The translations under genes and the position numbers were made by a program. Positions 8,754 through 55,200 of a stretch of 64,000 nt of DNA are shown piece after piece. The notes under the pieces were generated by a model, which made no database searches, was not told the origin of the DNA, and saw only the letters and a program-made list of their open reading frames with translations. Position 1 is the first letter of the stretch, and each line of letters opens with the position of its first letter. This DNA comes from Amyelois transitella. Lineage: Eukaryota; Arthropoda; Insecta; Lepidoptera; Pyralidae. The stretch is from contig NC_083522.1 of the NCBI RefSeq assembly GCF_032362555.1, forward strand, positions 1,590,001-1,654,000, written 5' to 3'.

Positions 8754-8926
8754 TGTTACGAACTCCTTAGAGTATTCCGAACTCCTTTGTAAAGGACAAG
8801 AACTTTGTATTTTAAAATAAGAAAAATAAGAAAATAAATGACTGTCTGTTTTTTAAGCGTGCATCATCTTTTATTTACCAGCGCAAATATTATTATTTTA
8901 TAATTATTTTCAGCAAATTTCCTATA
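8754..8926 (+). repeat. 5' LTR of the BEL/Pao element
   Basis: 173 bp, same sequence as 14637-14809 by eye. It contains AATAAATGACTGTC, a possible poly(A) signal region for the element. Confidence 0.93.
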
Positions 8927-8958
8927 TTTTGGTCCTTTTCGAGCTAAAAACAATAAAG

Positions 8959-36500: not shown

Positions 36501-39500
36501 TGACGCCAACCACTTTTCTCGAAGCTCTGAAGAAAATTGTAACAGTTGCTCGAATAAATGCGTACTGCAATCTCAACAAACACCTCTGTCCAAATCTTGT
36601 TGTGAATCTACCAGGATTTGATACGAAAAAATGTTGTAGTAAGTATAATGACAATGATATAAGAAGGGAACTAATTTTACAAAAGCGTTTGACTGAATCC
36701 GTAACAGCATAAAAGGATAAATATAATTCAAAGCTGAATGAAACAAGAAAATTTTAAGGTTTTGTTTATTTCTGACATACAAGCCAATAAATCTATCAGG
36801 AAAAAGAATAATATTGGCGAAATTGTTATTATACCACTTGGAGTACCCCAAGGGCTTGTCCTGAGTCCTTTGTTATTTTTACATTTAGAAATATATATAT
36901 GCCATGATATTAGAAAAGAGTACCTAGTTCCTTCAACAATAATAAATTACAATTTATTTAAGGTTCGCATCAGTCTCATCGTGGTTACCTGGCTTTCGAT
37001 GAATATTCACCCTTGCTGTATATAGCTGCACTTTACATCCAGTTCTTTGTTATCATGGTAAGTATCAGTATCAATCATTTCTTATTTGTAAGGACAGTGA
37101 ACCCATTTTTGTAGAGAATATTCTCTCAATACTTCCCAATAACTCATTACTTAAGAAATTTCAATAGTTTTGCTATACATCTCTTAAGTCTGTTACTCGT
37201 ATAACCCAAATTCAAATTTCAAAATTTTTATTTTTTACAAACATCAAATAAATAAATTAAAACTAAGTTTACAGAAGGAACGGTAACAAAATGCTGCAGT
37301 GCAGTTTGTTACCGTTTCTTCTGTAGGTAATTCATGAATTTTAGTGATGTTATTGAATTTAATTACTTTCTTTCTTCCACTCCGGTTTATTCAAAGGTAG
37401 AAAGCGATGATCGCCATAAATGGGAGATCTGCCGCCAGGCTAGACGTTATGCCGCACCACAGACGATGTTGAGTAGAAGTTTGTATTCATGCACCAATCC
37501 ACGAAATCTTATCTTCACTACAATTGGCTGAGCGCGTCACTTTACTTCGCTGTGATTGGTTAATGGCGTTTGACGTAGAGATGTCGCGACAGTCAAAAGA
37601 TTATTGCCTTTCAAAGCCCGTGAATAAGACAACAAGTAACATCCGCAGATGGTGGTGGTACTGACCGAACGTGGTGTACTTAGCAGACTCGAAGACGCCC
37701 TGTATAACTTTAGATACAAATCGGTGCTGACCCGACAAGATGATGAGACTATTTTGAAAGAACAGCAGTATGTTGATGAGGCTCTTAGTGAGTATAGAAT
37801 GACATTGTAAAGAAAAATATAATAGTTACTTCATTTATTTATTTTTTCAATTTCTACCACCAGTTACGATGTGGAAAACATGCGATTTTTAGTGTGGGAG
37901 CTTTTACCATAGATTATTACTTAAATACCTTCATTTTTACCCGAAAATCGAGGATTAAGCGACGGCGTGTATATTGATAGGCCATTGATAGTACCAAAAA
38001 CGAGAATCGATGCAATCAGATTTGAAACGTGCCGTGTGGTTTCACGGTACCATTACAAAAAATAGAAGGACCACTCCATCTCTTTCCCACGGATGTCGTA
38101 AAAGGCGAGTAAGGGATAGGCTTATTATCTTGGGATACCTCTTTTAGGCGATGGGCTAGAAACCTGTCACTATTTGAATATCAATTCTATCACACAGCTG
38201 AGCGTGGCCTATTAGTCCGTTCAAGAATGGTGGCTCTGTCTACCCCGCTAGGGATATAGACGTGATCATATGTATTTATGTAGATTTGAAACGTTTTGCT
38301 CTCTTTTAGAACAATCCCGCGGCGACGCCATGCTGGTCTCATCAGTTCACAAGCGCTACCCGGGACTCTGCCAGAAACCTACCACCGCTGTCAAGGGGAT
38401 CAGCTTTGCAGTCCGTGAAGGTAACAAAAAAATTGTGGAGCCCCAGGAAAAGGAAACCTCTTCTATGATTCTTTTGTGTCTCATGATGATGCCATAATGC
38501 ATTTTTTTAGTTATATGAATAGGTACAAATTCTGCCAACAGTCGTATCAACATCAAAATAAACTAGGTATTTCTACTCTCCAGGGGAATGTTTCGGCCTG
38601 GTGGGCGTGAACGGCGCCGGCAAATCCACCACGTTCAAGATGATGACGTGCGAGACGTTCCCCACGCGCGGCCGGGTCGTGGCCAACGACCAGCCGCAAC
38701 GAGTGTTTGATAACTCCAAGGTGCTACTCCATTTTCTTCTTTTTTGCTTCTTGTAAAAGCCTGATTTACCCATCTAGATTCGCGCTCATAAGTGCACCCC
38801 GCTCTCTCTCCCTCTTCCCAGAGAGCTGAGGACGCAAACGGACAAACTAATGCCTTTTATGATGACCCCTTTTTAACCCACTTTTGTTCTCACAAGAGAT
38901 AAGTAGCAATACAGTTGAACATGGTCCCCCGGTCTCTTCTTTGCTTTTTCTCTTGTTTGCTCTGTCTATCCCGTAACGGATAAAGACGTGAGACGTATGT
39001 CTTTTTTAAGGTAGGTATACCTACGAGTACAAGTACATACATACAATAGATATAATTGGGTGTTATTTTTATTTATCAGTTCCTTAAGCAACTGGGTTAC
39101 TGCCCGCAATTCTTCGGCCTGGACGACTTTATGACGGGCCGCCAAAACTTGGAGTTCTTGCTCACGCTGGACGGATTGGACAAAAAGGATACCAAGTTGG
39201 AAGCAGTCCGCTGGCTGGAGTTGATAGGTGTGAAGTTTTACTTGATTTAGGTAACCATTAGTAGTGCGAAACACTAAACCTTGTCTTCTTCACTATTCGC
39301 TGTTTATTTTGCAAGCCTAAGTGCCCCTTTAAATGAATAAAATGTTTATGTTTCACGTGTCCTTCCTTCTTCTACTTGACACAAGCAAGTGTCTTGCAGA
39401 CCTGATGAAGTATGCAGACCGGCCAATGAGCTCGTACAGCGGCGGGTGCGCGCGGCGCCTGAGCAGCGTGGGCGCGCTGGCCCGCCGCGCCGCGCTGTCG

Positions 39501-42500
39501 CTGCTGGACGAGCCCACGGCCGGAGTGGACGTGGCGGCCAGGCGGCAGCTGTGGCGCGCCGTGCGGGCGGCCCGGGCGCAGCGCACGCGGGCGGGCAGGA
39601 AGCGGGCCGTGCTCATCACGTCTCACAGGTAACAGTTACAGCAGACGTGGCGGCCAGGCGGCAGCTGTGGCGCGCCGTGCGGGCGGCCCGGGCGCAGCGC
39701 ACGCGGGCGGGCAGGAAGCGGGCCGTGCTCATCACGTCTCACAGGTAACAGTTACAGCAGACGTGGCGGCCAGGCGGCAGCTGTGGCGCGCCGTGCGGGC
39801 GGCCCGGGCGCAGCGCACGCGGGCGGGCAGGAAGCGGGCCGTGCTCATCACGTCTCACAGGTAACAGTTACAGCAGACGTGGCGGCCAGGCGGCAGCTGT
39901 GGCGCGCCGTGCGGGCGGCCCGGGCGCAGCGCACGCGGGCGGGCAGGAAGCGGGCCGTGCTCATCACGTCTCACAGGTAACAGTTACAGCAGACGTGGCG
40001 GCCAGGCGGCAGCTGTGGCGCGCCGTGCGGGCGGCCCGGGCGCAGCGCACGCGGGCGGGCAGGAAGCGGGCCGTGCTCATCACGTCTCACAGGTAACAGT
40101 TACAGCAGACGTGGCGGCCAGGCGGCAGCTGTGGCGCGCCGTGCGGGCGGCCCGGGCGCAGCGCACGCGGGCGGGCAGGAAGCGGGCCGTGCTCATCACG
40201 TCTCACAGGTAACAGTTACAGCAGACGTGGCGGCCAGGCGGCAGCTGTGGCGCGCCGTGCGGGCGGCCCGGGCGCAGCGCACGCGGGCGGGCAGGAAGCG
40301 GGCCGTGCTCATCACGTCTCACAGGTAACAGTTACAGCAGACGTGGCGGCCAGGCGGCAGCTGTGGCGCGCCGTGCGGGCGGCCCGGGCGCAGCGCACGC
40401 GGGCGGGCAGGAAGCGGGCCGTGCTCATCACGTCTCACAGGTAACAGTTACAGCAGACGTGGCGGCCAGGCGGCAGCTGTGGCGCGCCGTGCGGGCGGCC
40501 CGGGCGCAGCGCACGCGGGCGGGCAGGAAGCGGGCCGTGCTCATCACGTCTCACAGATAACAGTTACAGCAGACGTGGCGGCCAGGCGGCAGCTGTGGCG
40601 CGCCGTGCGGGCGGCCCGGGCGCAGCGCACGCGGGCGGGCAGGAAGCGGGCCGTGCTCATCACGTCTCACAGGTAACAGTTACAGCAGACGTGGCGGCCA
40701 GGCGGCAGCTGTGGCGCGCCGTGCGGGCGGCCCGGGCGCAGCGCACGCGGGCGGGCAGGAAGCGGGCCGTGCTCATCACGTCTCACAGGTAACAGTTACA
40801 GCAGACGTGGCGGCCAGGCGGCAGCTGTGGCGCGCCGTGCGGGCGGCCCGGGCGCAGCGCACGCGGGCGGGCAGGAAGCGGGCCGTGCTCATCACGTCTC
40901 ACAGGTAACAGTTACAGCAGACGTGGCGGCCAGGCGGCAGCTGTGGCGCGCCGTGCGGGCGGCCCGGGCGCAGCGCACGCGGGCGGGCAGGAAGCGGGCC
41001 GTGCTCATCACGTCTCACAGGTAACAGTTACAGCAGACGTGGCGGCCAGGCGGCAGCTGTGGCGCGCCGTGCGGGCGGCCCGGGCGCAGCGCACGCGGGC
41101 GGGCAGGAAGCGGGCCGTGCTCATCACGTCTCACAGGTAACAGTTACAGCAGACGTGGCGGCCAGGCGGCAGCTGTGGCGCGCCGTGCGGGCGGCCCGGG
41201 CGCAGCGCACGCGGGCGGGCAGGAAGCGGGCCGTGCTCATCACGTCTCACAGGTAACAGTTACAGCAGACGTGGCGGCCAGGCGGCAGCTGTGGCGCGCC
41301 GTGCGGGCGGCCCGGGCGCAGCGCACGCGGGCGGGCAGGAAGCGGGCCGTGCTCATCACGTCTCACAGGTAACAGTTACAGCAGACGTGGCGGCCAGGCG
41401 GCAGCTGTGGCGCGCCGTGAGGGCGGCCCGGGCGCAGCTCACGCGTGCGGGCAGGAAGCGGGCCGTGCTCATCACGTCTCACAGGTAACAGCTCCAGTAG
41501 ATAGCTGTGCTGTAGCCTGCCGTACGAGCGGTCCGTTTAACTCAATTGTGGCCTTTAAACTGTGCATATTCTGTTGCCTCCTCTGTAGTAAAAGAGGCTA
41601 CATTATTCCCCCGTATGTAGGCATCTGTGTTTTACATTTAAGAATTTCTACTACCACTACCTACTTGATCCAATTGTTTGATTGTCCAGTATGGACGAGA
41701 TGGAAGCGCTGTGTTCCCGCGTGGGCATCATGTCTGCGGGGACCCTGGTCGCACTGGGCTCCCCCGCGGCTCTGCGCGCGGCTCACCACGCGGGGGTCTC
41801 ACTTTATATTAAAATCAAGGATACTGCCGGAGCAAGCGGTAACTACCTAATTTTTCATGTACCATGGGAGTGCTACATTTGTGAGGAAGTGCGAAGGAAT
41901 CTTATAGATAATGTTGTACGCGGGATCTGCGGTGAACTTAGGTGGCTCCAAGAATTTGCGCATCAACGGCATAAGCTTCGGAGCGGCTTCGAGAGAGGCA
42001 ACGAAAGAAATTTAAACAAGTCAAACTAAATAAAAGCTTTTAAAAAAGCTTTATAGTATTGATATTCCTTGACCTCAGATGAGTTTTTTTCATTAATATT
42101 CCTGCTCTCTGTTAGTAAAATATGATTTGATACTTTCAGGAACATCGGAGAATTCTGAATTGCTAAAATTAAAGCAGGCTTGTGAGGATGACCTGTGGAC
42201 TCTCAAAGATGAGCACAAGGTTAGTGCAGTCGGAAACACCTAAACTACAAAGACGGGCGTACGAACTGGAGGACTTAGCACAGAAGGGGGTCAGAGCGGG
42301 AGACCCGGATATTTGTAGTGTTATGATTGAAAGTTTTACATTTTTCTCACTTTCAGACTATGCTGAGCTACCACGTGGACAAAAGCCTAAACATGTCTTA
42401 CAGCGAGATATTCACGAAATTGGAGCAATTGCGGAAATCTTTCCCTAACCTCATTGAAGACTATGCGGTGACCGCGACGACCCTTGAAGAGGTATTCCTG

Positions 42501-42554
42501 ACATATGCCAAGACACAGGCAGGTGGTGTGCAGTCACCATCATCTACTAAATGA
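15507..42554 (+). CDS. ABC transporter subfamily A, gene 1 (32 coding exons)
   Basis: Full-size ABCA transporter of 1,671 residues, expected to move lipids across membranes. Exons: 15507-15758, 16020-16161, 16508-16605, 17095-17212, 17481-17566, 18314-18475, 19096-19257 plus 24348-24414, 25340-25507, 26988-27166, 27941-28081, 28371-28488, 28729-28883, 29183-29413, 30525-30663, 31297-31558, 32028-32080, 32888-33006, 33788-34001, 34440-34519, 34864-35059, 35429-35650, 36030-36152, 36396-36638, 36963-37057, 37649-37787, 38310-38420, 38584-38720, 39080-39227, 39400-39628, 41690-41838, 42140-42219, 42357-42554. All junctions are GT-AG and in phase, and the total is 5,016 bp. Layout: TM1 and a luminal loop (exons 1-5), TM2-6 (6-9), NBD1 (11-14), second membrane half (17-25), NBD2 (26-30), C-terminus (31-32). 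Exon 7 is interrupted by a transposon, so this haplotype may be null. Start ATG 15507 precedes the first membrane segment. The ABCA member was not determined. Confidence 0.93.
18195..18280 (+). repeat. Family A repeat fragment
   Basis: Partial copy (CCCTTAGTTGCCTTTTACGAC, GAGATGGAGTGGTCC) of the common ~260-bp repeat with a CATA/TATG tail, in intron 5 of ABCA gene 1, about 30 bp before exon 6. Confidence 0.75.
18520..18995. repeat. Cluster of family A repeats in intron 6
   Basis: A reverse fragment (about 18520-18598), a complete forward copy (about 18603-18866, GGTCACGTCTATATCCC to ACCACACGGCAC) and another reverse fragment (about 18930-18995). A piece of the family E repeat follows at about 18995-19075. 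Confidence 0.8.
19646..21431 (+). CDS. PIF/Harbinger transposase (HARBI1-like nuclease)
   Basis: Five exons: 19646-19870, 20011-20201, 20251-20425, 20657-20798 and 21022-21431 (TAG), GT-AG junctions in phase, about 380 residues. The DDE triad is visible: D in [11 protein letters not shown] in [10 protein letters not shown] and E in [16 protein letters not shown] lies between them, and VLHNIAIH follows. It cuts and integrates the element in the nucleus, normally with the Myb-like partner encoded on the other strand. All exons are open and no damage is seen. The start ATG 19646 gives MHSLRLLW; an earlier start is not evident. Confidence 0.92.
21393..21437. repeat. Perfect palindrome over the transposase stop codon
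   Basis: AATTATCTAGTCAGTAGAATGC-free arms of 22 bp (21393-21414 and 21416-21437) are exact reverse complements around a single A. The stop codon (21429-21431) lies in the right arm. Confidence 0.9.
21438..21903. other. Intergenic spacer between the two Harbinger genes
   Basis: AT-rich 3' flank of both convergent genes. It holds a tandem duplication at about 21700-21790 (ATTGTATATTCTAT(G/C)ACTA followed by CTAGAAGAAGCAGTCTT, twice). Confidence 0.7.
21904..21987. repeat. Inverted repeat around the Myb-like gene stop codon
   Basis: ACCGCAGTAGAGACAACA (21904-21921) and TGTTGTCTCTACTGCGGT (21970-21987) are exact reverse complements, 18 bp each. The stop codon of the - strand gene (21947-21949) is in the loop. 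Confidence 0.9.
21947..23907 (-). CDS. Harbinger Myb/SANT-like DNA-binding protein
   Basis: Accessory protein that binds the transposon ends and assists the transposase. Exon 1 is 23846-23907 (ATG at 23907; [12 protein letters not shown]), exon 2 is 23572-23704 ([15 protein letters not shown]), and exon 3 begins near 23470 ([12 protein letters not shown]) and ends near 23280. A small exon probably lies at about 22970-23070, and the last runs from about 22460 to the stop at 21947. The last exon is Pro/Arg/Ala-rich, then forms a charged helix ([18 protein letters not shown]) likely to be a coiled coil. The Trp-rich N-terminal half ([20 protein letters not shown]) fits the Myb/SANT-like fold. 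The junctions of exons 3 and 4 are less certain than the others. Confidence 0.8.
22705..22885 (-). repeat. Family B repeat nested in the Harbinger element
   Basis: Between TTGACGTC (about 22722) and GACGTCAA (about 22829), with GAAGTTTGTTGCGCCGCTTC and GGAAGTCGGCGGTAG inside. It lies in an intron of the Myb-like gene. Confidence 0.75.
24485..24680 (+). repeat. Family A repeat
   Basis: Partial copy from GTCATGTCTATATCTCTTAC to GCCTTCTACGACAGTCAC in intron 7 of ABCA gene 1. Confidence 0.8.
24865..25285 (+). repeat. Family A repeat split by a family B repeat
   Basis: The family A copy (24865-24947 and about 25104-25285) is interrupted by a family B copy at about 24947-25095. AATGATAGAAT occurs on both sides of the insert, so A is older than B here. 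Confidence 0.78.
25515..25690 (+). repeat. Family B repeat
   Basis: Copy starting AATTCAAAATTTTTATTCAT, containing GACGTCAA and CCGCTTCCAAGGCGTCAGTG and ending at GGTAACAAACTGCACTG, just inside intron 8. Confidence 0.8.
25790..26045 (+). repeat. RTE-like 3'-end repeat (CCGCGACTTCGTCCGCG type)
   Basis: CCCGCGACTTCGTCCGCGTG, then a body ending with TTCAATTCGAACCAGTAG and TTTATAATATTAGTTT. The reverse copy of the same body is at about 58.66-58.89 kb. Confidence 0.75.
26230..26390 (-). repeat. Family B repeat
   Basis: GACGTCCGTTGAAAAGACTG to GACGTCAATAAGTGATACC in intron 8; ends in the AAATAAATCTATTCTAT tail typical of this family. The rest of intron 8 (26.4-26.98 kb) shows nothing further. Confidence 0.78.
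27535..27790 (+). repeat. Family E repeat
   Basis: Contains ATAAAGGGAAGATCTTCCACC, CAGGCTAGGTGTTATGCC, TTGGCTGTTGTGTCTTGTGG and CGTAGAGATGGCG. A second copy lies at about 37380-37600 and a fragment at about 18995-19075. Class unknown. Confidence 0.6.
28230..28700 (+). repeat. Family A repeat fragments around NBD1 exon 11
   Basis: Two partial copies, about 28230-28281 and 28535-28690, flank the Walker A exon. Confidence 0.75.
29445..29610 (-). repeat. Family A repeat
   Basis: Reverse copy, partial (TTCTTTTCTAGGCGATGGGC to GGGATATAGACGTGACC) in intron 13. Confidence 0.78.
29985..30095. repeat. Family C repeat, fold-back pair
   Basis: CACTTGCCACGATCTCTGC in forward orientation, then GGAAAGTGGTAGTCTCTGCC to ATTTTATGTATGTATG in reverse, with (GTAT)n at the edge. 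Confidence 0.7.
30240..30490 (-). repeat. RTE-like 3'-end repeat (GCGAAGCCGGGGCGGGC type)
   Basis: Reverse copy; ends CGTGCGAAGCCGGGGCGGGC and contains TTTTGATAAAATTTGGCACA. It lies about 35 bp upstream of exon 14. Confidence 0.7.
30708..31225. repeat. Inverted pair of family A repeats
   Basis: A full reverse copy (about 30708-30965) faces a full forward copy (about 30970-31225) with only a TATG/CATA microsatellite between them, so about 250 bp could fold back in intron 14 RNA. Confidence 0.85.
31575..31935. repeat. Family A repeat plus reverse fragment
   Basis: Forward copy (about 31575-31850), then a reverse terminal fragment (about 31892-31935) with (GTAT)n, in intron 15. Confidence 0.8.
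32150..32360 (+). repeat. RTE-like 3'-end repeat
   Basis: CCGCCCGCGACTTCGTCCGC, TCCCGCGGGAACTCTGG, ATTTCATGGTAATCGGTTCA and a final TTTATAATATTAGTAGGAT. Typical non-LTR 3' end in insect genomes. Confidence 0.8.
32383..32612 (+). mobile_element. tRNA-derived SINE
   Basis: A box region TGGTGCAGCGGTAG, B box AGTTCGAATCC, body GGCCTGGGTCTTGGATG. It sits directly after the RTE-like repeat in intron 16. Confidence 0.85.
32685..32840 (-). repeat. Family B repeat
   Basis: TTGACGTCCAGTGTAAATGC to GACGTCAATTAAAACC, 50 bp before exon 17. Confidence 0.78.
33150..33302 (-). mobile_element. tRNA-derived SINE, 5' part
   Basis: Reverse copy with GGATTCGAACCCGGG (B box) and CTACCGCTGCACCACAGAGG (A box) in intron 17. 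The remaining intron to 33787 shows no feature I can name. Confidence 0.85.
34010..34115 (+). repeat. Family C repeat
   Basis: ATACATAAAATCACGCCTC, CCCGGAGGGGTAGGCAGAGA, CACTTGCCACGATCTCTGC. It begins only a few bases after exon 18. Another fragment of the same family is at about 35085-35225 (AACTTTCTTCATGCAAGCTC). Confidence 0.78.
37205..37600 (+). repeat. Family B and family E repeats in intron 24
   Basis: A shortened family B copy at about 37205-37325 and a family E copy at about 37380-37600. Confidence 0.65.
38025..38278 (-). repeat. Family A repeat
   Basis: Reverse copy from CGTGCCGTGTGGTTTCACGG to ATATAGACGTGATCATATG, ending about 30 bp upstream of exon 26. Confidence 0.8.
38310..41838 (+). 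other. NBD2 of ABCA gene 1 (exons 26-30)
   Basis: Second nucleotide-binding domain. Walker [10 protein letters not shown] in exon 27, Q-loop GYCPQFFG in exon 28, signature [10 protein letters not shown] and Walker [13 protein letters not shown] in exon 29, and H-loop [12 protein letters not shown] across the junction of exons 29 and 30. The signature has Cys-Ala after SGG; many ABCA proteins have Asn-Lys there. Exon 29 is unusually GC-rich and its last ~101 bp seed the array in the next intron. Confidence 0.92.
39528..41490 (+). repeat. 116-bp exon-derived tandem array, gene 1
   Basis: About 17 head-to-tail units of 116 bp. The first unit is the last 101 bp of coding exon 29 (from GACGTGGCGGCCAGGCGG) with its donor (CACAG|GTAACA) and 15 bp of intron; the other copies fill the start of intron 29. 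Inner units look identical. One unit has the donor changed to AT (about 40557) and the last has several substitutions. GC content is very high, with repeated GGG runs on the coding strand. 116 is not a multiple of 3, and reading past the first donor meets TAA at once, so only the first donor can give the normal protein. Confidence 0.97.
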
Positions 42555-42958
42555 CAATCGAATACCTAATCGGAAGCCGAATTATTATTACTTTGATATT
42601 ATGTACTTGTTAAGTAAGTATATATATGATTTTTTTATACAATAAAAATTTTACTTATAATTCTGATTTTGATTATGTTGTTTTATTTCTACCTACACCT
42701 TAGTCGGCAACCTGTACTTAGTTTCTGATGTAAAGTTCGATCTAAATTTAAGAGCATAAAAGTAAGCTGTTTTAAGGTTAACCATAAAAATCTATTTGCC
42801 AATGAGTACATCACCACATGCCGCGATATCAGCATATGTGTCATTGTCAATCTTGACACATTTACATTGCACTTTTTTCATTTTGATTCAAGGTCGCGGC
42901 TGTGCGCATGTTTTCTTCAATAAAATCCAATTAAAATTGTCCCCAGTGCCACAATCTT
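42555..42958 (+). other. 3' UTR of ABCA gene 1 and spacer to UMP-CMP kinase
   Basis: AATAAA at 42641-42646 is the likely poly(A) signal of ABCA gene 1, about 90 bp after its stop. The remaining ~300 bp up to the kinase ATG must hold that gene's promoter; no clear TATA or initiator was singled out. Confidence 0.6.
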
Positions 42959-43600
42959 ATGCTTTACCGTGCATTGCGGAGTTTATCTAGTTATCTAAAT
43001 AAAATGGTGCCTGAAGTTGTATTCGTGCTTGGTGCACCCGGTGCCGGCAAAGGAACACAGTGCTCTCTTATTTCTAAAGAATATGGCTTTGTTCACCTTT
43101 CTGCTGGGGATTTGCTACGCGAGGAGCGTCAGAGGCCTGGTTCCGAGTACGGAGAGATGATAGAGCAGTGTATACGTAATGGTGAAATTGTTCCTGTCGA
43201 GGTTACATGTTCACTTCTTCACAAGGCGATGCAGAAGTCGGGTCAGACTAGGTTCTTGGTAGATGGCTTCCCTCGAAACAAGGATAACTTGGAGGGCTGG
43301 ACACGAGAAATGGCGGATAAGACAAAATTATTATTTGTTCTATTCTTTGAGTGTTCAAAAGATTTATGCACTGAGCGGTGTTTGGGACGTGGCGCGGCCG
43401 GCAGCGGGCGTTCAGACGACAATTTGGAGAGTCTTATGAAGAGATTCAATACTTATTTGAATGACACTATGCCTATTATAGAGCACTATGAGAAACAAGG
43501 GCTTGTGCGTAAAATCAATGCTGAGGTTGCTCCTGATCAGGTGTTTGAAGAGGTTAAAAAAGCATTTAACCAGTGTGGATTGGAGAAATTGAATAACTAA
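42959..43600 (+). CDS. CMPK1: UMP-CMP kinase, intronless
   Basis: Transfers phosphate from ATP to UMP/CMP (and dCMP), a step of pyrimidine nucleotide synthesis. 213 residues. P-loop LGAPGAGKGTQC, the NMP-binding region FVHLSAGDLLREE, the substrate motif VDGFPRNKDN, and the lid region GRGAAGSGRSDDN, with all key residues in place. The length is the family's ~195 plus 15 extra N-terminal residues (MLYRALRSLSSYLNK) before a second in-frame ATG at 43004. The extension is basic and Ser/Leu-rich, so it could act as a mitochondrial presequence, with the second ATG giving a cytosolic form; that is inference. It has no introns, unlike all neighbours, so an origin as a retrocopy is possible. It sits between the 3' ends of the two ABCA genes. 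Confidence 0.93.
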   Translation: MLYRALRSLSSYLNKMVPEVVFVLGAPGAGKGTQCSLISKEYGFVHLSAGDLLREERQRPGSEYGEMIEQCIRNGEIVPVEVTCSLLHKAMQKSGQTRFLVDGFPRNKDNLEGWTREMADKTKLLFVLFFECSKDLCTERCLGRGAAGSGRSDDNLESLMKRFNTYLNDTMPIIEHYEKQGLVRKINAEVAPDQVFEEVKKAFNQCGLEKLNN

Positions 43601-44360
43601 TATTAATGATAGATAATTTAGCATAATAGTATTGTGATACATCTTACCCTGTGCTAGCTATGTGCTACATATTACATACCAATAGTTTAAAAGATTGAGC
43701 TTTAAAAGTAATGTAACATGAGTGAAAATATTGAATGACAAAAATGTTATGTATTATTGTGATTAACAGTTGCTTAGCTACACCTACTTATGAGGTGGAG
43801 TAAAATCATGATGCCTGGAAGTAGAACGGAAGACTTGGTTCTTTATAAAATTTTAATTTAATTAATGCTTCTATGCCTAAGCCAGTTAAGAAATATCTAC
43901 TTAAACCAATTTAAAAAAAAATTTATTGAACCCACTCTACTTTTTATTCTAGCTGTTAACTAAATTGCTAAGATTTTTTTATCATCATGGTGAAATTTTC
44001 CTAAACTTTATTACTTGGTTTTGAACTTATTTATTTTGTTTTAGAATTAATAATTTAAATCAGCATGAATATAGGTTGTAATTGTGACTTAGTGTTTTCA
44101 ATTCCACTACCATATCAAATAGTACATTTCCACACTTTTAAATAAGAACATGGCATGCTAATGAGACCCCTTTTCTATTGAACCTTAATAAATCACACAG
44201 TAATATAGTGACTAGTTACCATATCTTTTTTCAGGAGGTTTTGGATTTAATTCCCAGTGCATGCAAATACACACACATTCACTATTCATTAAGTTGGATT
44301 TTAGATTCAGAGATAGTAGCAGGGTGCTTGCTTATTGCTGAGAGGAATGTCCAATTTATA
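43601..44360. other. AT-rich flank of UMP-CMP kinase
   Basis: Presumed 3' UTR and spacer. I see no gene or strong repeat; no canonical AATAAA was confidently assigned to the kinase. Confidence 0.5.
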
Positions 44361-44560
44361 TTCAAATTCAAATTCAAAATTTTTATTCATTATTATAGGA
44401 TATTATTATATCGCTTAATAATTGTCGTATGGTTTAACAACTTGGTTGACGTCAAATAAATTACTTAAAAACTAAGTTTACTGCCGCTTCCAAGGCGTCA
44501 GTGCAGAAGAAGCGGTAACAAACTGCACTGCAGCATTTTCATCAACAACGTCAACTTCAC
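44360..44560 (+). repeat. Family B repeat, long copy
   Basis: Starts ATTCAAATTCAAAATTTTTA, contains GGTTGACGTCAAATAAATTA and CCGCTTCCAAGGCGTCAGTG, and ends CTGCACTGCAGCATTTTCATC with ACGTCAAC. It has nearly the same length and order as the 25.5- and 54.6-kb copies. Confidence 0.82.
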
Positions 44561-44666
44561 AATATTAAATTATACTTAGAATAGAATGTGGACGGGAGAA
44601 TACATTGTTCACGGGAGATTTATATATTTATGAGATTATATATACACCTTTCCTTTCATTGATTTT

Positions 44667-44790
44667 TATTGACTACACACTAGTGACCCACTGCGCTTTT
44701 GCATGTGTAGCATTTATACATATAAACCTTCCCCTTGAATTGCTCTATCTATTTAAATAAAATCATCAAAATTCGTTGCGTAATTTTAAA
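44667..44790 (+). repeat. RTE-like 3'-end repeat (family D)
   Basis: CTAGTGACCCACTGCGC, ATAAACCTTCCCCTTGAATTG, AAAATTCGTTGCGTAATTTT. A decayed family C piece follows at about 44895-44955. Confidence 0.65.
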
Positions 44791-44959
44791 GATCTAATAA
44801 TACTTGGGAAGCACCTTTGCTTTAGACTATGTAGTGTTACTTATATCCAATTGACACTTGTGTTGATTAACAAACTCATGACTCGTGAAACACTGGCTCC
44901 TGGATGGGAAGGCAGAAACCACTACTTTACCTTTGCTACAATTCCTGAATGCATACATA

Positions 44960-46100
44960 CTATTTACATGCCTGTGACACCTTAGACCCTATTTTGATTA
45001 TCATTAGGTTATTATCATTTAGGTTGTGGTCAAATACACTCAAATTTCCAATGAAAGTACCTTTACTTTTACCCATATTTGGGTTATGCATAATCATAAA
45101 TATTTTCATCTTATTGGTATAAATTAATTTTACCTTTCCATTAGTTATTTTCAACTGTTAAGCTGTGTTTTGATAAAAAGGTTACAAATACCTACCCATG
45201 TCTGATGAGTAGGTATGACTTGACTTTAAGTGCAATAATACCAATCAGTTCATATGATGAACGTAAAGGCCATTAGCCTTATCACTGCTGATATAAAACA
45301 GATTATCATGCTGCTTGACCGTGTTTGTTTCGTTTTCAATAATCTTAGTATAATTCTATTAGTTTTTTTTAAGTCTTGTTTCATTCATGTAATGTATATT
45401 CCCACCTATTATATAGTGCCTCATAAAACATAAGAAAGTACTTTTATGCAGAGTTTAAATCATGTCATGTTGAATTTGAATTTGCTATTTTGGACTTAAT
45501 AAGATCATTTGTAGTTTGTAGCAAAATAATGATTTGTTATTAATATTTAGCACCTGAAATATATATTATTTAAATGCCATATTTATACAAGTTCAGATCC
45601 TATTTTCAGATGTCTAAATATGAAAATGAAGAAAAATGTAAAAATTCTAACCATTATCATGTTTGCCAAGTTATAAGCTTCAGCTGTCTATGCCTACCTA
45701 GATATTATATACAATATTTGGCAAGCAAATCCCTACCTATTAATGTAAATCATGCGTCATATTTATGATTATTAGTATAAATTTCTTATGTATAATGCTT
45801 AAAATATGTAATAAACATCTACATTATTAAGAATTTAGACTACAGAGTACAGTGTAGTTCGATGTGTGTAGTAGGTAGGTAACTTTAGTACCTTATCTTA
45901 CAGTTCCGAATTTTATGTACATGAAAATCTTGTCTTGTTTAAGAGGATACCAGGATCCATATATATGTATAACAAAATATTATTAAGTCTGTTTATGCTA
46001 GGAACGTATGTAAAAGGCAAAGAGTTGCAAACGCCATTTGAAAATTTGTAAGTTTGTTACAATAGGAGAGGCAAATATATGGGTAGGTACTTAATAATAT
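44960..46100. other. Featureless AT-rich spacer
   Basis: Short open frames only, none recognisable. No repeats with strong matches elsewhere in the window. Confidence 0.5.
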
Positions 46101-46104
46101 TACG

Positions 46105-46945
46105 ATATATAAATATTGATAAACGGTGAAAAGATACAGTTTTATTGAGAAAGAGAGCCCCACCCAGGTATTTCATCATAGAATAGAAATGTTGATGTAA
46201 AAATCTAGATGTAGTGATTGTGAAAAATTCTATTACAATATATTTACCTGCCTTTAACGAAAGAATAGCATAATTGTGCATGTTAAAATTAGATAAAGCG
46301 GTTGAATCTAGCAATATTTTACCAATTGTTCATGCTTAGTGTTAATTAGGTCATAATGTTATTTATAATTATAGTGGACAGGTTTTCGCAGGGCCGGATT
46401 TGGAATGGGGCACTAAAGAGGCCCCAATTTGATTGACAATCGTGAAACAATGTCCAAATAATTGAGAAGTTACGTAAAGAGTCCACCTTTAATACCAAAA
46501 ATTAAAAGGTCTGTGTGGCTTTTCAACTTCTTCAAATCTAGCCCTGACGATTCTTGTCCGAAGAGATTTTAAAACAAATTCACAGTATTGTATGTTTGTT
46601 TCCTTATGGTTGTGTTCAGTAAATCAACAAAACGGGAGTAAATATGGTTCTGTCCAGGGCCGGATTTGGTTGACAGTAGTTTGGCGTAAGCCGGGCCTTG
46701 AGGCCACTAAGAATATTTCAATAGATATTGATAATCCGTGAAAAATGATAGTTTTATTGAGAAAGGCAGTTCTTCATAGATAAAATAACCAGATAATGTG
46801 GATTGCGAAAAAAAACTGTTGCAAAAGTAGTTATATGACCTGCCTTTAACGACACCATTAGTTAAATTATCACAGATAAGGGCCATGCCCTCCATCACCC
46901 AGGGTCTAACTAGTTCTGGAACCTAAATCCGACCTTGGCTCTGGT
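46105..46945. repeat. Diverged direct repeat with CAGGGCCGGATTTGG ends
   Basis: About 46105-46270 and 46722-46865 share the order ATATTGATAA, CAGTTTTATTGAGAAAG / TAGTTTTATTGAGAAAG, ACCTGCCTTTAACGA. CAGGGCCGGATTTGG occurs at about 46392 and 46657, and a related reverse motif CCGACCTTGGCTCTG ends near 46940. Such termini recall hAT elements, but I found no target duplication. Confidence 0.5.
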
Positions 46946-49229
46946 ATAATGAAAATAGTGTGTGGTAGCTGTGGAGTAAATAAAATGTAATGAAACCAGA
47001 ATATTGAATTGTTTAACTTGAATATCAAACTCATACCAACTAATGTTTGTCAGGCAAATTTGATGTTACCAGTTTAAGTTTTAACGGAGAGATTTATAAA
47101 TCGCTTTCTCTTTACGATATTTATTTTACGCATGCCTGAACTAGCTTTTAGGGAAATAATTGGTTACATGCAAACATATTATCACGTCTATATCCCTTGC
47201 GGGGTAGACAGAGCCAACAATCTTAAAAGACTGAAATGCCAGCTGTATGGCTCTTTGATAGAATTGGGATTAAGTTAGTTTAGGTTATAAAAGAAAAACG
47301 TTCGTACATTCAGTCATTTTATTTAAGAAGAATACAGTTGTGTTACACACTTAACATTTAAACTGAAACTAAACTGAAAATTACTATGCATCTATAATAT
47401 TGTGATCAGCTTTGGATTTAAACGCCGACTTAAAAACTAAAATAAATGTAAATTTGCAACTTCATCAAACGTCAAAAATCTTAAAGAATAAAGTAGTAAT
47501 TGTAGAGTACAAAACAAAAATACAAATTAAAAATATGTGGAATGTGCAAATTTGTTTCCGTGTTTTAACGAACCGACTAAATACTAATAATATTGCTCAT
47601 ATCACGTGAGCTAGATATTGTGTGATTGTGTCGAAATTACATGAAAAATAAAATCACCCACGAAACCATGGTGTTAGTGAGACTTGGCCCAGTAAGTACT
47701 ATCAATCAACATACAATCAGCCACTGTAGCATGACACGTGACAGTACAGTGACGTAACGTGAAACGCGACAGCGGCAGTTATTCGCGCGATATAAAAGTA
47801 GGCGCGCGTGCGCACGCGCAAACGCGTTAAAAATAATAAAACTATTCGTGTAAGCAATCAAAAATGCACTGAATCACTTTGCTTTCTAAGCCTGATAAAT
47901 ATATGAGTAGTTATTTAAAAGTATTGCAACCTTTGCAATAATAATTTTTATTGAATACACTGTGAAAACATAAAAATAAAACTATTTTTAGACCAATCGA
48001 TTGGCAGTGAACATCTTTTCTTGTGGTTTTGCCAATATTTAATTTATACAAAGTTATACTTGTATTATACAACGTGCTACGTAAAATAATGGCCGCTTTG
48101 AGCGTACTTATAAAGCTAAAAATAATGAAGGTACAGATAATATTCTTACTCATTTAAAACATAAGCGGATAACTATTTAAGTGTCACAAAAAAAAAACGT
48201 ACAAGAATAAACATTTGTGCATCTAATAATACAAAAATATGCAGTATGCACTTTATCTCTAACATATAACTTATACATACTGATAAAAAAAAGAATAAAT
48301 AAATCTCTTTGCGAATTTTTTAACTTAATAAAGGATATAATAAGATTTGTTCTTATAAATTCTGTTTCTAGCCAGTACCAAAAGCAAGCATTAACTTATA
48401 AATACAATATTTAAACTTATGTACGTAAGCCAAGATCTTTTAAATTGATTTTATCCAATATTCACACGGGTGCTTTCACCTTTAGAGTTGGTTTATTATG
48501 TGATATTTAAGTATAAATCGAGATGCGCATGAGACGATTTGAAATGCTCAAGTTTAGTAGATGTGACGAAATGAGACACGGGACGGATTTGAACTGAAAT
48601 ATGCAAATGGGATGAATTTCTCCAATAGGTGTAGTCCAAAATGCTTGTGAACCAGTCTTATCAAATCGTACGATTAATACCTATATGATAATAATATCAC
48701 CATCAACTATGTAAATACAAAAGATTTTTGAGGACCCTATTTCAAATAGCAAAAAATACATTACTAGATTTTCAAAGATATAAAAGCGTACAGTGAACCA
48801 TTTAGAAATGTACACCACCTTATGTTTCAAAGGTACACTTTTCTATGTAGCCTACTGTACGTAACTAAGCAATGTGACAGATTGGTCAGATCCATAATTT
48901 TTAACCAATCGATGACACTCAATCGTCTTTCAGCAATATTTAATACATAATATAGGTCACTTATCTGTCATTCTTAAATTTATATACAGGAACAACTTTT
49001 TCTATGGGGGTGACAGTGAAATTGCGAAAAAAGGATCAGCTGTTACATATAAAATTAATCACCTACAGCGACAAAATGAATAGAACTTTTAATGATTTTC
49101 CAAGACAAAGTTGTTCAGTATAATTGTCCGAGTAAGTATGTAAAGGGTGTTGCGTTTGTTACCAGTGACCCTGTATATATATAAATTAAGAGTGACCTGT
49201 ACTAAATACAACGGCCCACTTATCTGTTT
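46946..49229. other. Spacer between UMP-CMP kinase and ABCA gene 2
   Basis: Includes a family A fragment at about 47178-47275 and a CpG-rich patch at about 47755-47830 (ATATAAAAGTAGGCGCGCG), which could be a promoter of an unseen transcript. The rest is AT-rich with no recognisable gene. The 3' UTR of the - strand ABCA gene must lie in its right part; its poly(A) site was not identified. Confidence 0.45.
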
Positions 49230-52200
49230 CTAAACGTTCTCCTTCTCTTTGGCGTAAGACAGGAACACTTCCTCGAGAGTGGTTTCTGTGACAGCGTAGT
49301 CTTCCACCAGGGCCGGGTAAGTGGTCCTGAGTTCTTCAAGTTTGGTGAACAATTCACTGTACTGTAGCCTGAGACCTTTGTCCACGTGGTAGTTGAGCAT
49401 AGTCTGGAATTTATTAAATTTAAAGATTTTAATTACATTTATATACTTACGTCTATATTCTAACGTAAAGGGTAAAACCAACGGCTGAAAAGCCACGTTC
49501 AAGCTCTATGGCTAAATGATGGAATTGAGATTCAAATAGTGATAGGTTGTTAGCCCATCACATACAAGAATAATCCCAAGTTTATAAGCGTTTCCCTTGG
49601 TTGCCTTTCACGACATATGGAGTGATCCTATTTTAAAGTGCCAGTGACTACAAGGCTCATGTTTGATTTACTTGCCTAATTAGAGCATATAAAGCGACAC
49701 TGCTGTGAATTCCAAAACATTTCAGCAAACTTAATCAGAATAACAGCATAAAGTCAGGCTACAATAAATCACACGCGGCCGAAATCGTCAACGAGTTGGT
49801 AAGTACTATAAACATTTAACAAATGAGATTCTATTCCATTGTGAAAACGCTAAAATGTCTATGACCAAAAACAAGACGTTTATTGGGGACTCTAATTAAT
49901 TACAAACGTAGGTTTTTACGAAAAAAAAAATACTTTATACTTAACACACCTTATGCTCATCTTTGGGTATCCACTGGTATCGTAAACAGGTTTCTTTCAG
50001 ACGCTTCAAATCGAGATTGGGGCTATCCGTCACTGAAATAAAACGCACATTTTATTTATCACACCATGGCACCACTTGGCACACCTCGAATTCCCTTGCT
50101 GTCGTCTAATTTAGAGCAATGCAATAATCTTAAAGAAAATGGTTATTTCATTCAATAGTCCTCAAGAACTTATTCCAATGCCTTCTATTCTAATTTCAAA
50201 ACAAAAACGTCACCATTGCCGTTAATTTTTTGAAATTAGAACCATCGTCGTAGCCGTGCGTGGAAGTTCTGTTTTCCTAATTTAAATTACTCAACAATCA
50301 TCACATGCAGTGACCAGTGTCTCAAATCTTGTTAAAGACGACGGAAGCTGTTGTGTGTGCTTGAAGTTCCTTTTTCAAAAATCGCCCAATTTAAAATAAG
50401 ATTACTCACCGTCAGTCCCTTCCCGCGGGGCGGCGCTAGTGTCTCTGATCTTGATGAAGACTACCAGACCGGTGTGGTGAGAGGCTCTTAGTGCTGCAGG
50501 GGATCCCAACGCTGCCAATGTCCCGGCAGACATGATGCCCACGCGAGAACATAAAGCCTCCATCTCGTCCATACTGTCAAATAAGTAAATTTATTATTTT
50601 TTGTAGTTTTTTTCGTAAAAATTATAATTTGTTGATAGTTTGTTTTTTAAAAACGGCCACGTCTGCTGTAACTGTTACCTGGCCGCCCGCACGGCGCGCC
50701 ACAGCTGCCGCCTGGCCGCCACGTCTGCTGTAACTGTTACCTGTGAGACGTGATGAGCACGGCCCGCTTCCTGCCCGCCCGCGTGATCTGCGCCCTGGCC
50801 GCCCGCACGGCGCGCCACAGCTGCCGCCTGGCCGCCACGTCTGCTGTAACTGTTACCTGTGAGACGTGATGAGCACGGCCCGCTTCCTGCCCGCCCGCGT
50901 GCGCTGCGCCCGGGCCGCCCGCACGGCGCGCCACAGCTGCCGCCTGGCCGCCACGTCTGCTGTAACTGTTACCTGTGAGACGTGATGAGCACGGCCCGCT
51001 TCCTGCCCGCCCGCGTGCGCTGCGCCCGGGCCGCCCGCACGGCGCGCCACAGCTGCCGCCTGGCCGCCACGTCTGCTGTAACTGTTACCTGTGAGACGTG
51101 ATGAGCACGGCCCGCTTCCTGCCCGCCCGCGTGCGCTGCGCCCGGGCCGCCCGCACGGCGCGCCACAGCTGCCGCCTGGCCGCCACGTCTGCTGTAACTG
51201 TTACCTGTGAGACGTGATGAGCACGGCCCGCTTCCTGCCCGCCCGCGTGCGCTGCGCCCGGGCCGCCCGCACGGCGCGCCACAGCTGCCGCCTGGCCGCC
51301 ACGTCTGCTGTAACTGTTACCTGTGAGACGTGATGAGCACGGCCCGCTTCCTGCCCGCCCGCGTGCGCTGCGCCCGGGCCGCCCGCACGGCGCGCCACAG
51401 CTGCCGCCTGGCCGCCACGTCTGCTGTAACTGTTACCTGTGAGACGTGATGAGCACGGCCCGCTTCCTGCCCGCCCGCGTGCGCTGCGCCCGGGCCGCCC
51501 GCACGGCGCGCCACAGCTGCCGCCTGGCCGCCACGTCTGCTGTAACTGTTACCTGTGAGACGTGATGAGCACGGCCCGCTTCCTGCCCGCCCGCGTGCGC
51601 TGCGCCCGGGCCGCCCGCACGGCGCGCCACAGCTGCCGCCTGGCCGCCACGTCTGCTGTAACTGTTACCTGTGAGACGTGATGAGCACGGCCCGCTTCCT
51701 GCCCGCCCGCGTGCGCTGCGCCCGGGCCGCCCGCACGGCGCGCCACAGCTGCCGCCTGGCCGCCACGTCTGCTGTAACTGTTACCTGTGAGACGTGATGA
51801 GCACGGCCCGCTTCCTGCCCGCCCGCGTGCGCTGCGCCCGGGCCGCCCGCACGGCGCGCCACAGCTGCCGCCTGGCCGCCACGTCTGCTGTAACTGTTAC
51901 CTGTGAGACGTGATGAGCACGGCCCGCTTCCTGCCCGCCCGCGTGCGCTGCGCCCGGGCCGCCCGCACGGCGCGCCACAGCTGCCGCCTGGCCGCCACGT
52001 CTGCTGTAACTGTTACCTGTGAGACGTGATGAGCACGGCCCGCTTCCTGCCCGCCCGCGTGCGCTGCGCCCGGGCCGCCCGCACGGCGCGCCACAGCTGC
52101 CGCCTGGCCGCCACGTCTGCTGTAACTGTTACCTGTGAGACGTGATGAGCACGGCCCGCTTCCTGCCCGCCCGCGTGCGCTGCGCCCGGGCCGCCCGCAC

Positions 52201-55200
52201 GGCGCGCCACAGCTGCCGCCTGGCCGCCACGTCTGCTGTAACTGTTACCTGTGAGACGTGATGAGCACGGCCCGCTTCCTGCCCGCCCGCGTGCGCTGCG
52301 CCCGGGCCGCCCGCACGGCGCGCCACAGCTGCCGCCTGGCCGCCACGTCTGCTGTAACTGTTACCTGTGAGACGTGATGAGCACGGCCCGCTTCCTGCCC
52401 GCCCGCGTGCGCTGCGCCCGGGCCGCCCGCACGGCGCGCCACAGCTGCCGCCTGGCCGCCACGTCTGCTGTAACTGTTACCTGTGAGACGTGATGAGCAC
52501 GGCCCGCTTCCTGCCCGCCCGCGTGCGCTGCGCCCGGGCCGCCCGCACGGCGCGCCACAGCTGCCGCCTGGCCGCCACGTCTGCTGTAACTGTTACCTGT
52601 GAGACGTGATGAGCACGGCCCGCTTCCTGCCCGCCCGCGTGCGCTGCGCCCGGGCCGCCCGCACGGCGCGCCACAGCTGCCGCCTGGCCGCCACGTCCAC
52701 TCCGGCCGTGGGCTCGTCCAGCAGCGACAGCGCGGCGCGGCGGGCCAGCGCGCCCACGCTGCTCAGGCGCCGCGCGCACCCGCCGCTGTACGAGCTCATT
52801 GGCCGGTCTGCATACTTCATCAAATCTAAAAGAATGTCAATGTAATCAGTTGAAACAGATTAGGATTAACAAACTCGATAGTTTAGAACGAGTGAAAAAG
52901 AATCCGCAGAAAAATAACTGAAACATTCTTATCCTAGATGTAATACTGGCCGGCAACAACTCCACCCATAGATTCAAATTTTGAACGAAGGGAAAAGCAC
53001 CCGTGTTAAAATATAAGAAACCCTGTGTTTAAATTAAGAACGCGCTGGCCCATTCAAATATTGTTTTTTTTTTGTCTAGTAAACATTTCAATATTGAACA
53101 TACTGGCTGAGTTTAAAAAAAATTCTTTTAATTTTTTTTAAACTTTCATTTGGGAACGAATTGCACTTAGTGGCTTTTTTAAATGGCTCCTTCGATAAGC
53201 GGCCCGTCAGGCATTCGGCCATGCTGAAAAATTGGGGTAGCTACTTAATTTTTCCTAGAAACGCGAGGATAACATTCAATGAACTGTTTAATCTCTCTTA
53301 TATTTGCGTGTTCTGAGTAGTTTCCTTCGCAACTTAGCTTAGCTTCGTAACCCAAGGACTATCATAACGAAGAAATATGGTCATCAGGTTCTTAGAAAAG
53401 ACGTTGCAGAAAGAAAATGTGGTGTTTCTCTCCGACACTAAACGGATATCGGTGTACATGATTTGCTGGTGATCTTAGATACATCATATGAAGAGAAACT
53501 GGTATTGGCAAAAGATGACATGCGAGCCAATGGACTGAAATCAAGAGGACGCCGAAAACAGGACCGAGTGGAGACAGAAAAGTAGGAAGGCGGACCCTGG
53601 GCCCCGTAACACTTCTGTGGAGGGTAAGAGAATCAGTATTTTTTTTTAAATTTTGCTCTTGAAAGATGTCAATCTATCAGAAATCCTGAACAAAAGACGA
53701 ACGCACCAATCAGCTCGAGCCACCTAATGGATTTATATGTTACTGATACGGGAGGACGCAGAGATGACAAAGAAAACTGGTTTTTTAAATTTTCCTCTTG
53801 AAATATATAAATCTATCAGAATACCTCTGACAGGTTCTGACGGCCAGTTCGGAACTCATTGGCGCCGAACAATTAAAGGCAGTAACGTAATTCTTCTTAA
53901 GGAAGACGCCAGGAAGATGCCGGTCTTTATATAAGCTACTGTTTTTCTGATATGAACAGAGGAGAAATCAGCAAATGAGCTCAGGAGACCATAGACTAAA
54001 ATATCAAAGATTTTTGGGTAATTACAAAGATCTTCTCAGAAGACGTTGCAGAATTAAACTAAGTCATTACTTTCTGACATCCGATTAATAATACTTAGTC
54101 TATTAGCTATGGGTCTTTGAGACTTACTTTTGACTTAAGATACATAATAAGAGGAACTCACCAATCAGCTCGAGCCACCTGACGGCCTCCTTGCTGGCGT
54201 CCTCTGCAGAAAGTCCGTCCAGCTTCAGCAGCAGCTCCAAGTTCTGTCGGCCAGTTAGGAACTCGTCCATGCCGAAGAATTGGGGACAGTAACCGAGCCC
54301 GTTCAGATACTGCGGGTGGAAAATAAAACCAAACTTAGAGCATCGATGGTCAAATGAATGAATGAACTCATTCATTCTTCAGTCTTGAAAGACTGATAGG
54401 CCACATTCAGCTGTTAGGCTTAATGATAGAATTAAGATTCAAATAGTGACAGGTTGCTAGCCCATTGCCTAAAAGGAGAATACCTGAAAGAACAATAATG
54501 AAGAGAAAGTTCATAAGCCTATCCCTTACATTAAATTTTAAGTTTAATTGATATTGTGAAGTTGACGTTGTTGAAGAAAATGCTGCAGTACAGTTTGTTA
54601 CCGCTTCTTCTGCACTGACGCCTTGGAAGCGGCAGTAAACTTAGTTTTAAGTAATTTATTTGACGTCAACCAATGTTGTTAAACCATACGTTTTGACAAT
54701 TATTAAGTGATATGAAGTATCCTATAATAATGAATAAAAATTTTGAATTTGAACTTAGTCGCCTTTTACGACATCCATGGGAATGAGATGGGGGTGGTCC
54801 CATTCTTTTTTATATTGGTATGAATTCATTCACCAAAGAATAAGTTTAAAGTCAAATGGGTGACTTAAACTAACCGTTAACATGAACTTTGAGTTGCGAG
54901 CTTGACCCGAACTTAACCGAAACGACTTCAGCATATTGCGGCTTAAAAAGTGAATTAAAATATTGAACTGGCGATTATAACTCAAAAAAGAGTAACCATG
55001 ACCCAACGCTATTAAGTATTCAGTGTTATTCAGTGGCAACATCCGAAATAGGTAGGTTTATATTTGACAATAATGATATCTATCCACACTTTTAATGAAA
55101 CAAAATACACGAGTATGTCTGTAACAACGAATAAACTCAAAAACTAGTGAACCGATTTTGATGAAATTTTGTACACAGATGGAACAGACCTTTAAGAATA

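Follow-up and report, generated by a model that had tools for sequence, protein, structure and literature searches.

The DNA considered here is a window of 64,000 nucleotides from the pyralid moth Amyelois transitella (RefSeq assembly GCF_032362555.1, contig NC_083522.1, positions 1,590,001 to 1,654,000 of the forward strand), and all coordinates count from its first base. It carries two convergent ABCA-type genes, gene 1 on the plus and gene 2 on the minus strand, and each contains an array of a 116-bp unit in the intron that follows the signature exon of the second nucleotide-binding domain (NBD2). Each unit comprises the last 101 bp of that exon followed by its 5′ splice site (donor) within 15 bp of intron starting GTAACA. 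The arrays thus consist of tandem exon-end units that each carry the exon's own donor, as is characteristic of a splice-donor minisatellite.

In gene 1, the NBD2 signature exon is 229 nt long (39400..39628, +), and its last 101 nt constitute unit 1 of the array. The first and presumably true donor, CAG/GTAACA, has its GT at 39629..39630 (+) and is joined in the database model P0121 to position 41690, the start of the exon after the array (41690..41838, +; SMDEMEALC...). In gene 2, the corresponding 229-nt exon (52597..52825, −) differs from that of gene 1 by 2 nt, its first, presumed true donor lies at 52595..52596 (−) and is used in the database model P0001, and the exon after the array occupies 50410..50573 (−). 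Joined through the first donor, the NBD2 of gene 1 reads without a stop, and its top match among solved structures is ABCA3 (E 6e-87). Membership of the ABCA family is further indicated by what we take to be the ABC signature, D-loop, and H-loop motifs of this type; the histidine of LITSH, encoded within the unit, is presumably the H-loop histidine.

Residues 1056–1668 of P0001 (Amyelois transitella, 1668 aa) fit gene 2 exactly over 12 exons, with the remainder beyond the end of the window. For gene 1, the model is P0121 (Amyelois, 1952 aa), which agrees with many of the exons at 100% and was mapped exactly as far as residue 1479. Both models splice the first donor to the exon beyond the array. 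P0121 also takes transposon-like sequence (20657–22416) and parts of the intron after 41838 (41839–42139) as exons, and looks doubtful there.

Repeat detection and unit-by-unit alignment place 17 full units in the gene 1 array (39528..41499, +) and 17 in the gene 2 array (50726..52697, −); Tandem Repeats Finder gives 16.9 and 17.4 copies, with 99% matches. Of these 34 units, 31 are equal to the consensus (15/17 in gene 1 and 16/17 in gene 2). Unit 9 of gene 1 (40456..40571, +) carries a single substitution that changes the donor GT to AT, leaving a dead decoy, while the edge unit 17 differs from the consensus at six positions in gene 1 (41384..41499, +) and at three in gene 2. Gene 2 additionally possesses a truncated 18th unit (50674..50725, −) with a further CAG/GTAACA donor (GT at 50678–50677). 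Donors of the form CAGGTAACA consequently number 16 in the gene 1 array (1 true and 15 decoys) and 18 in the gene 2 array (1 true and 17 decoys), and none occurs outside the two arrays on either strand of the whole window. The array-bearing introns measure 2061 bp (gene 1) and 2023 bp (gene 2). Beyond the gene 1 array, shuffle-scored alignment identifies a probable decayed remnant of a further unit (41509..41535, +; 21/27 identity): under lenient scoring, 1 of 500 shuffles scored as high, and under strict scoring, the best of 200 shuffles equalled it.

The arrays are real in this assembly, and a chance origin is ruled out. A preliminary description of this DNA had proposed twin inverted arrays of a 116-bp unit (101 exonic bp, the donor, and 15 intronic bp) with about 17 copies per gene, the inner copies alike within and between genes and the edge copies different; alignment of the individual units agrees with it throughout, and both paralogues, rather than one, carry the array. 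Its figure of about 16 decoys per gene holds for the existence of duplicated donors but not for their number, which is 15 intact decoys in gene 1 and 17 in gene 2.

The array-bearing exon has a GC content of 75%–76%, against 42%–62% for the other NBD2 exons measured, and each unit contains five GGG runs. At the five exonic unit positions at which edge and core units differ (37, 46, 55, 56, and 63), the edge always has A or T and the core G or C; the three intronic differences run in both directions. This pattern is as compatible with decay of the edges as with GC-biased conversion.

Five NBD2 exons were compared between the two genes, one 80-nt exon being left out. The signature exon has a synonymous divergence (dS) of 0.016 and a nonsynonymous divergence (dN) of 0, the 2 differences in 229 nt lying at exon positions 2 and 3. 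By contrast, the Q-loop exon shows a dS of 1.84 and a dN of 0.217, and dS is saturated in both the exon after the array (dN 0.152) and the last exon (dN 0.287). Since synonymous divergence is so low in the signature exon alongside 1.84 or saturation in these three exons, the exon and its array were recently exchanged between old paralogues, as had been suggested beforehand from the likeness of the inner units. The intron immediately upstream is only 60/100 identical between the genes. Near-identity confined to one part of otherwise diverged genes is, at the level of sequence comparison, the mark of gene conversion between paralogues. The exons downstream of the arrays are constrained in both genes, and hence the arrays have not ended gene function. 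The Walker A exon is also alike (dS 0.066, dN 0.01), lying in a tract (38474–38856 against 56080–55705) that is 93% identical, introns included, with flanks of 94/100 and 88/100; this is a separate conversion tract, probably older than the array exchange.

A similar likeness is seen at the protein level in Plodia interpunctella, whose two paralogues are identical over the signature exon (76/76) but match at only 34/49 residues in the preceding exon. The signature exon is likewise 76/76 within Amyelois, whereas all four Amyelois–Plodia comparisons give 68/76. Likeness within species thus exceeds likeness across species, which for these protein sequences is the pattern of concerted evolution. 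With 68.8% agreement outside NBD2, P0001 and P0002 are clearly orthologous. The nearest match of P0032 is P0121 (57.5%), yet P0121 and P0002 share 58.0%; because P0121 is about equally near P0002, the pairing of P0032 with P0121 as orthologues is only probable. The segment encoded by the unit is 32 residues long, six more than the usual 26, in 4 of 59 protein rows, namely the four phycitine ones; in the other 55, it spans 24–27 residues, the duplicated P0052 excepted. Separately, P0027 and P0029 of Ostrinia nubilalis share their signature exon at 44/44 and 25/26, compared with 34/46, 41/49, 35/49, and 40/51 in other NBD2 exons, and are likely a further case of local conversion judged from sequence.

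Two alternatives bear on this homogeneity. Arrays inflated by the assembly, or copied by it between genes, would account for inner units that are identical within and between genes, and a single assembly is concerned; such an artefact is nevertheless very unlikely, given that the arrays have distinct edges, a private variant (unit 9), and different flanks, that the signature exon has been homogenised independently in Plodia, and that each array, at about 2 kb, is shorter than usual long reads. It could also be that conversion itself was selected, the exon being homogenised for the benefit of the protein with the array as a by-product. The identical exon of the Plodia paralogues, the six-residue insertion common to the four phycitine rows, and the likely similar case in Ostrinia are in keeping with this; however, the unit includes non-coding sequence with the donor, and the G/C core at the five exonic edge/core differences is also expected from neutral GC-biased conversion or edge decay. 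We regard selection for conversion as highly improbable.

Reading on past the first donor is predicted to give ...LITSHR*, with the histidine kept and all downstream protein lost, and the use of a decoy at any unit, or retention of the intron, is predicted to lead to this one truncated frame. The preliminary description rightly placed a TAA directly on reading into the second unit but put the truncation before the H-loop; as the H-loop histidine lies inside the unit, truncation falls directly after it. The same stop bears on whether the units might themselves be translated, as additional exons or as repeats of the coding sequence, a reading for which in-frame exon-end repeats in some lepidopteran ABCA models could be cited. 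Both Amyelois models skip the array, and since 116 bp is not a multiple of three and TAA follows directly after the donor, the sequence of both arrays contradicts a coding repeat; frame and stop exclude it, and we give it almost no credence. Among 244 candidate small proteins predicted from the array frame, none had a match at E ≤0.001.

In each gene, the 101 nt upstream of donor 1 are identical to those upstream of donors 2–16. Downstream of donors 1 and 2, identity extends for 812 nt in gene 1 and 1684 nt in gene 2, unit 17 sharing less. Anything that distinguishes the first two donors must therefore be their position or lie in sequence beyond 101 nt upstream. Use of donor 2 would create an exon of 345 nt, whereas 33 mapped exons have a median of 141 nt and a maximum of 262 nt (a list that includes the gene 2 signature exon and omits four doubtful model exons at 19096–24414 and three partial or terminal ones). 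We infer that the first donor is used through exon definition. Two other candidates, RNA structure hiding the decoys and G-quadruplexes, were rejected: a three-unit fold was no better than dinucleotide shuffles (z 0.01; 46/100 shuffles as good), and no strict G-quadruplex motif was found on either strand despite the GGG runs.

Several points weigh against regular use of the first donor. One of the omitted doubtful exons (19096–24414 group) is 326 nt long, and the array donor ranks last but one by score among the 38 of these genes, the sole lower-scoring one being the non-GT junction of a doubtful model exon. Between two equal donors, splicing often prefers the intron-proximal site, a choice that in this case would yield the truncated product. 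The database models that join the first donor may themselves be predictions. In addition, 2 models among the 172 proteins listed end at the signature-exon junction, P0032 of Plodia (...SHRLF) and P0077 of Anticarsia (...SHR), endings that reading past that exon's donor would produce; truncated transcripts may thus be common, if these two models are not also predictions.

Such truncation could even be put to use, with array length setting the share of unproductive splicing (truncated NBD2 and mRNA decay) and so tuning transporter output. That all slips give a single truncated frame fits a regulatory device of this kind, as do the truncated Plodia and Anticarsia models. One decoy has lost its GT, although one loss says little, and exchange alone accounts for the identity of the units. 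We consider a regulatory role unlikely, and the human repeats discussed below bear on it in both directions.

The locus is probably best explained by a minisatellite seeded at the exon/donor junction. Exchange and conversion would keep its units alike, and it would be tolerated as long as splicing normally takes the first donor. The array anatomy, the identity of the units, the reading frame, and the recent conversion between genes are observed directly, and the differences in the edge units, together with the probable decayed unit, support a minisatellite. In the order of events that we infer for the minisatellite in each of the two old ABCA paralogues, a tandem duplication would have taken in the end of the NBD2 signature exon, the donor, and 15 intronic bp, and unequal exchange or slippage would then have expanded the unit number. 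Gene conversion would keep the units uniform at three levels: inside each array, toward the coding exon that forms unit 1, and across the two inverted genes. Splicing would normally occur at the first, exon-proximal donor, so that the 15 and 17 intact decoys leave with the intron, while slips onto decoys, or intron retention, would give ...LITSHR* transcripts that are probably degraded.

Gene 2 contains a second donor array (59727..61429, −), in which exon 61429–61196 is followed by copies of its last ~68 bases with GTAAGT or GTGAGT donors. The copies end at 60865, 60451, 60104, and ~59727 (degenerate), are spaced 331–414 bp apart, and have 23-bp sub-repeats within their intronic part. In a direct-repeat self-comparison of the window (limit 6 kb, pairs inside both 116-bp arrays excluded), 8 of 69 pairs touch exon matches; six of these come from exon 61429–61196, and the other two represent a 62-bp repeat (58361–58423) outside the mapped exon 58329–58194. 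This comparison found no acceptor-side array within 6 kb in the window. At most two independent donor events are involved, and hence the asymmetry between donors and acceptors is a mere hint. Elsewhere in the window, an open frame of 1806 aa (8857–14277, +) looks like a retrotransposon polyprotein, presumably of BEL/Pao type.

Comparison with other species drew on database proteins, not DNA, and rows of one species are not independent. The set comprised 172 ABCA proteins among the matches listed, from which 10 of unnamed source were dropped. Internal repeats (a 10-mer occurring twice within 400 residues) are present in 13 of 89 lepidopteran but 1 of 73 other ABCA proteins listed (Fisher p 0.0034, in a comparison that ignores row kinship and spans proteins with varying annotation methods). 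Fourteen repeat junctions were picked by eye; for 10 of them, the distance to an Amyelois exon end is no more than 1.3 residues, as is the case for 5.3% of P0121 residues as a baseline. The NBD1 signature exon is repeated in Helicoverpa armigera P0122 (four copies) and in Choristoneura fumiferana P0129 and P0138, and an exon of the first transmembrane domain (TMD1) in Epargyreus clarus P0131 (13 copies) and Euphydryas editha P0140 and P0148. Further repeats involve the NBD2 signature exon in Euphydryas P0052 (two copies), the exon after the NBD1 signature exon in Plutella P0057 (two copies), and the exon after the NBD2 signature exon in Iphiclides P0059. Setting aside a whole-exon duplication in Papilio machaon (P0123b), exon-end repeats thus occur in six lepidopteran species besides Amyelois. 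Chilo P0022 repeats the same exon end as Iphiclides but lies 4.3 residues off the Amyelois exon end and was not counted. The junctions of P0102 and P0123a are 13.7 and 12 residues from an exon end, and P0135 was left uncounted, as a better alignment places its junction 48 residues off. Nine junctions were tested for whether their residues allow a GT followed by A or G at precisely the intron phase; seven do (P0138 and P0052 fail), against 4%–15% of positions in the same proteins. P0022, for which no genome contig is given, may derive from a transcript, in which case array units would be present in mRNA.

Exon-end donor arrays thus seem, from these protein sequences, to recur at several exons in moths and butterflies. 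A broader proposal, which we advance tentatively and hold to be doubtful, is that lepidopteran genes recurrently amplify exon 3′ ends with their 5′ splice sites, driving concerted and possibly GC-biased protein evolution. Arrays may in this way turn coding exons into minisatellite members, going mostly unseen in annotation because they lie inside introns, and duplications on the acceptor side may be weeded out, since splicing would make use of the additional acceptor upstream. No report of a lepidopteran donor array was found among the matches listed in the literature searched, largely titles and the starts of abstracts; tandem repeats in an earthworm intron are not described as a donor array in the part of the report consulted (PMC12783039).

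The arrays amount to a natural splice-site competition assay for how cells pick a splice site: as local sequence cannot separate the donors, reads from RNA would put the rules of position and exon definition to a direct test. Here a coding exon doubles as the first unit of a minisatellite: exchange among the repeats can alter a stretch of a conserved ATPase domain in both genes at the same time, and the exon changes in concert with the decoys in the adjoining intron. The apparent recurrence in lepidopteran ABCA genes suggests a class that becomes visible in protein annotation only when units stay in frame.

The initial claim that no such case had been described does not survive comparison with three human minisatellites of the same kind. 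The 31-bp variable number tandem repeat (VNTR) of CBS, c.1444_1467+7(16_21), joins by its notation 24 nt of exon end to 7 nt of intron (PMC2630376), and is present in 16–21 copies, higher copy numbers being reported with lower enzyme activity (PMC2630376, PMC5188458, PMC1395315). As in Amyelois, each copy carries the donor of the exon (exon 13 in CBS); however, the CBS unit is short, belongs to one gene, and is polymorphic in people, and the passages drawn on report no paralogous twin array. CBS 844ins68 offers a further likeness as described there, in that a duplicated splice junction is tolerated with one of two sites strongly preferred (PMC2630376).

The VNTR in intron 18 of ABCA7, a member of the same protein subfamily, has a 25-bp unit that begins with the GT donor of an NBD exon and reaches ~12–427 units (PMC5954066). 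According to the sections consulted, splicing takes the canonical junction in the presence of many VNTR donors, and retention of one unit through a downstream donor causes a frameshift, much as predicted here. The ABCA7 unit, however, is given without stated exon sequence and concerns NBD1 rather than NBD2, and length there affects skipping of exon 19, not decoy use, single-unit retention being unchanged (PMC5954066). This last point argues against array length as a regulator of slippage, while the lower expression or activity that accompanies longer ABCA7 and CBS repeats in these accounts argues for it. The minisatellite of IFI6 (6-16) also offers several donors from tandem units, but its downstream units are described in the portion consulted as used, productively for isoforms (PMC4526556). 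Relative to these precedents, what is new in Amyelois is the long coding share of the unit, the twin inverted paralogous arrays that evolve together, and the second donor array in gene 2, along with the apparent reappearance of such repeats within a single gene family of one insect order.

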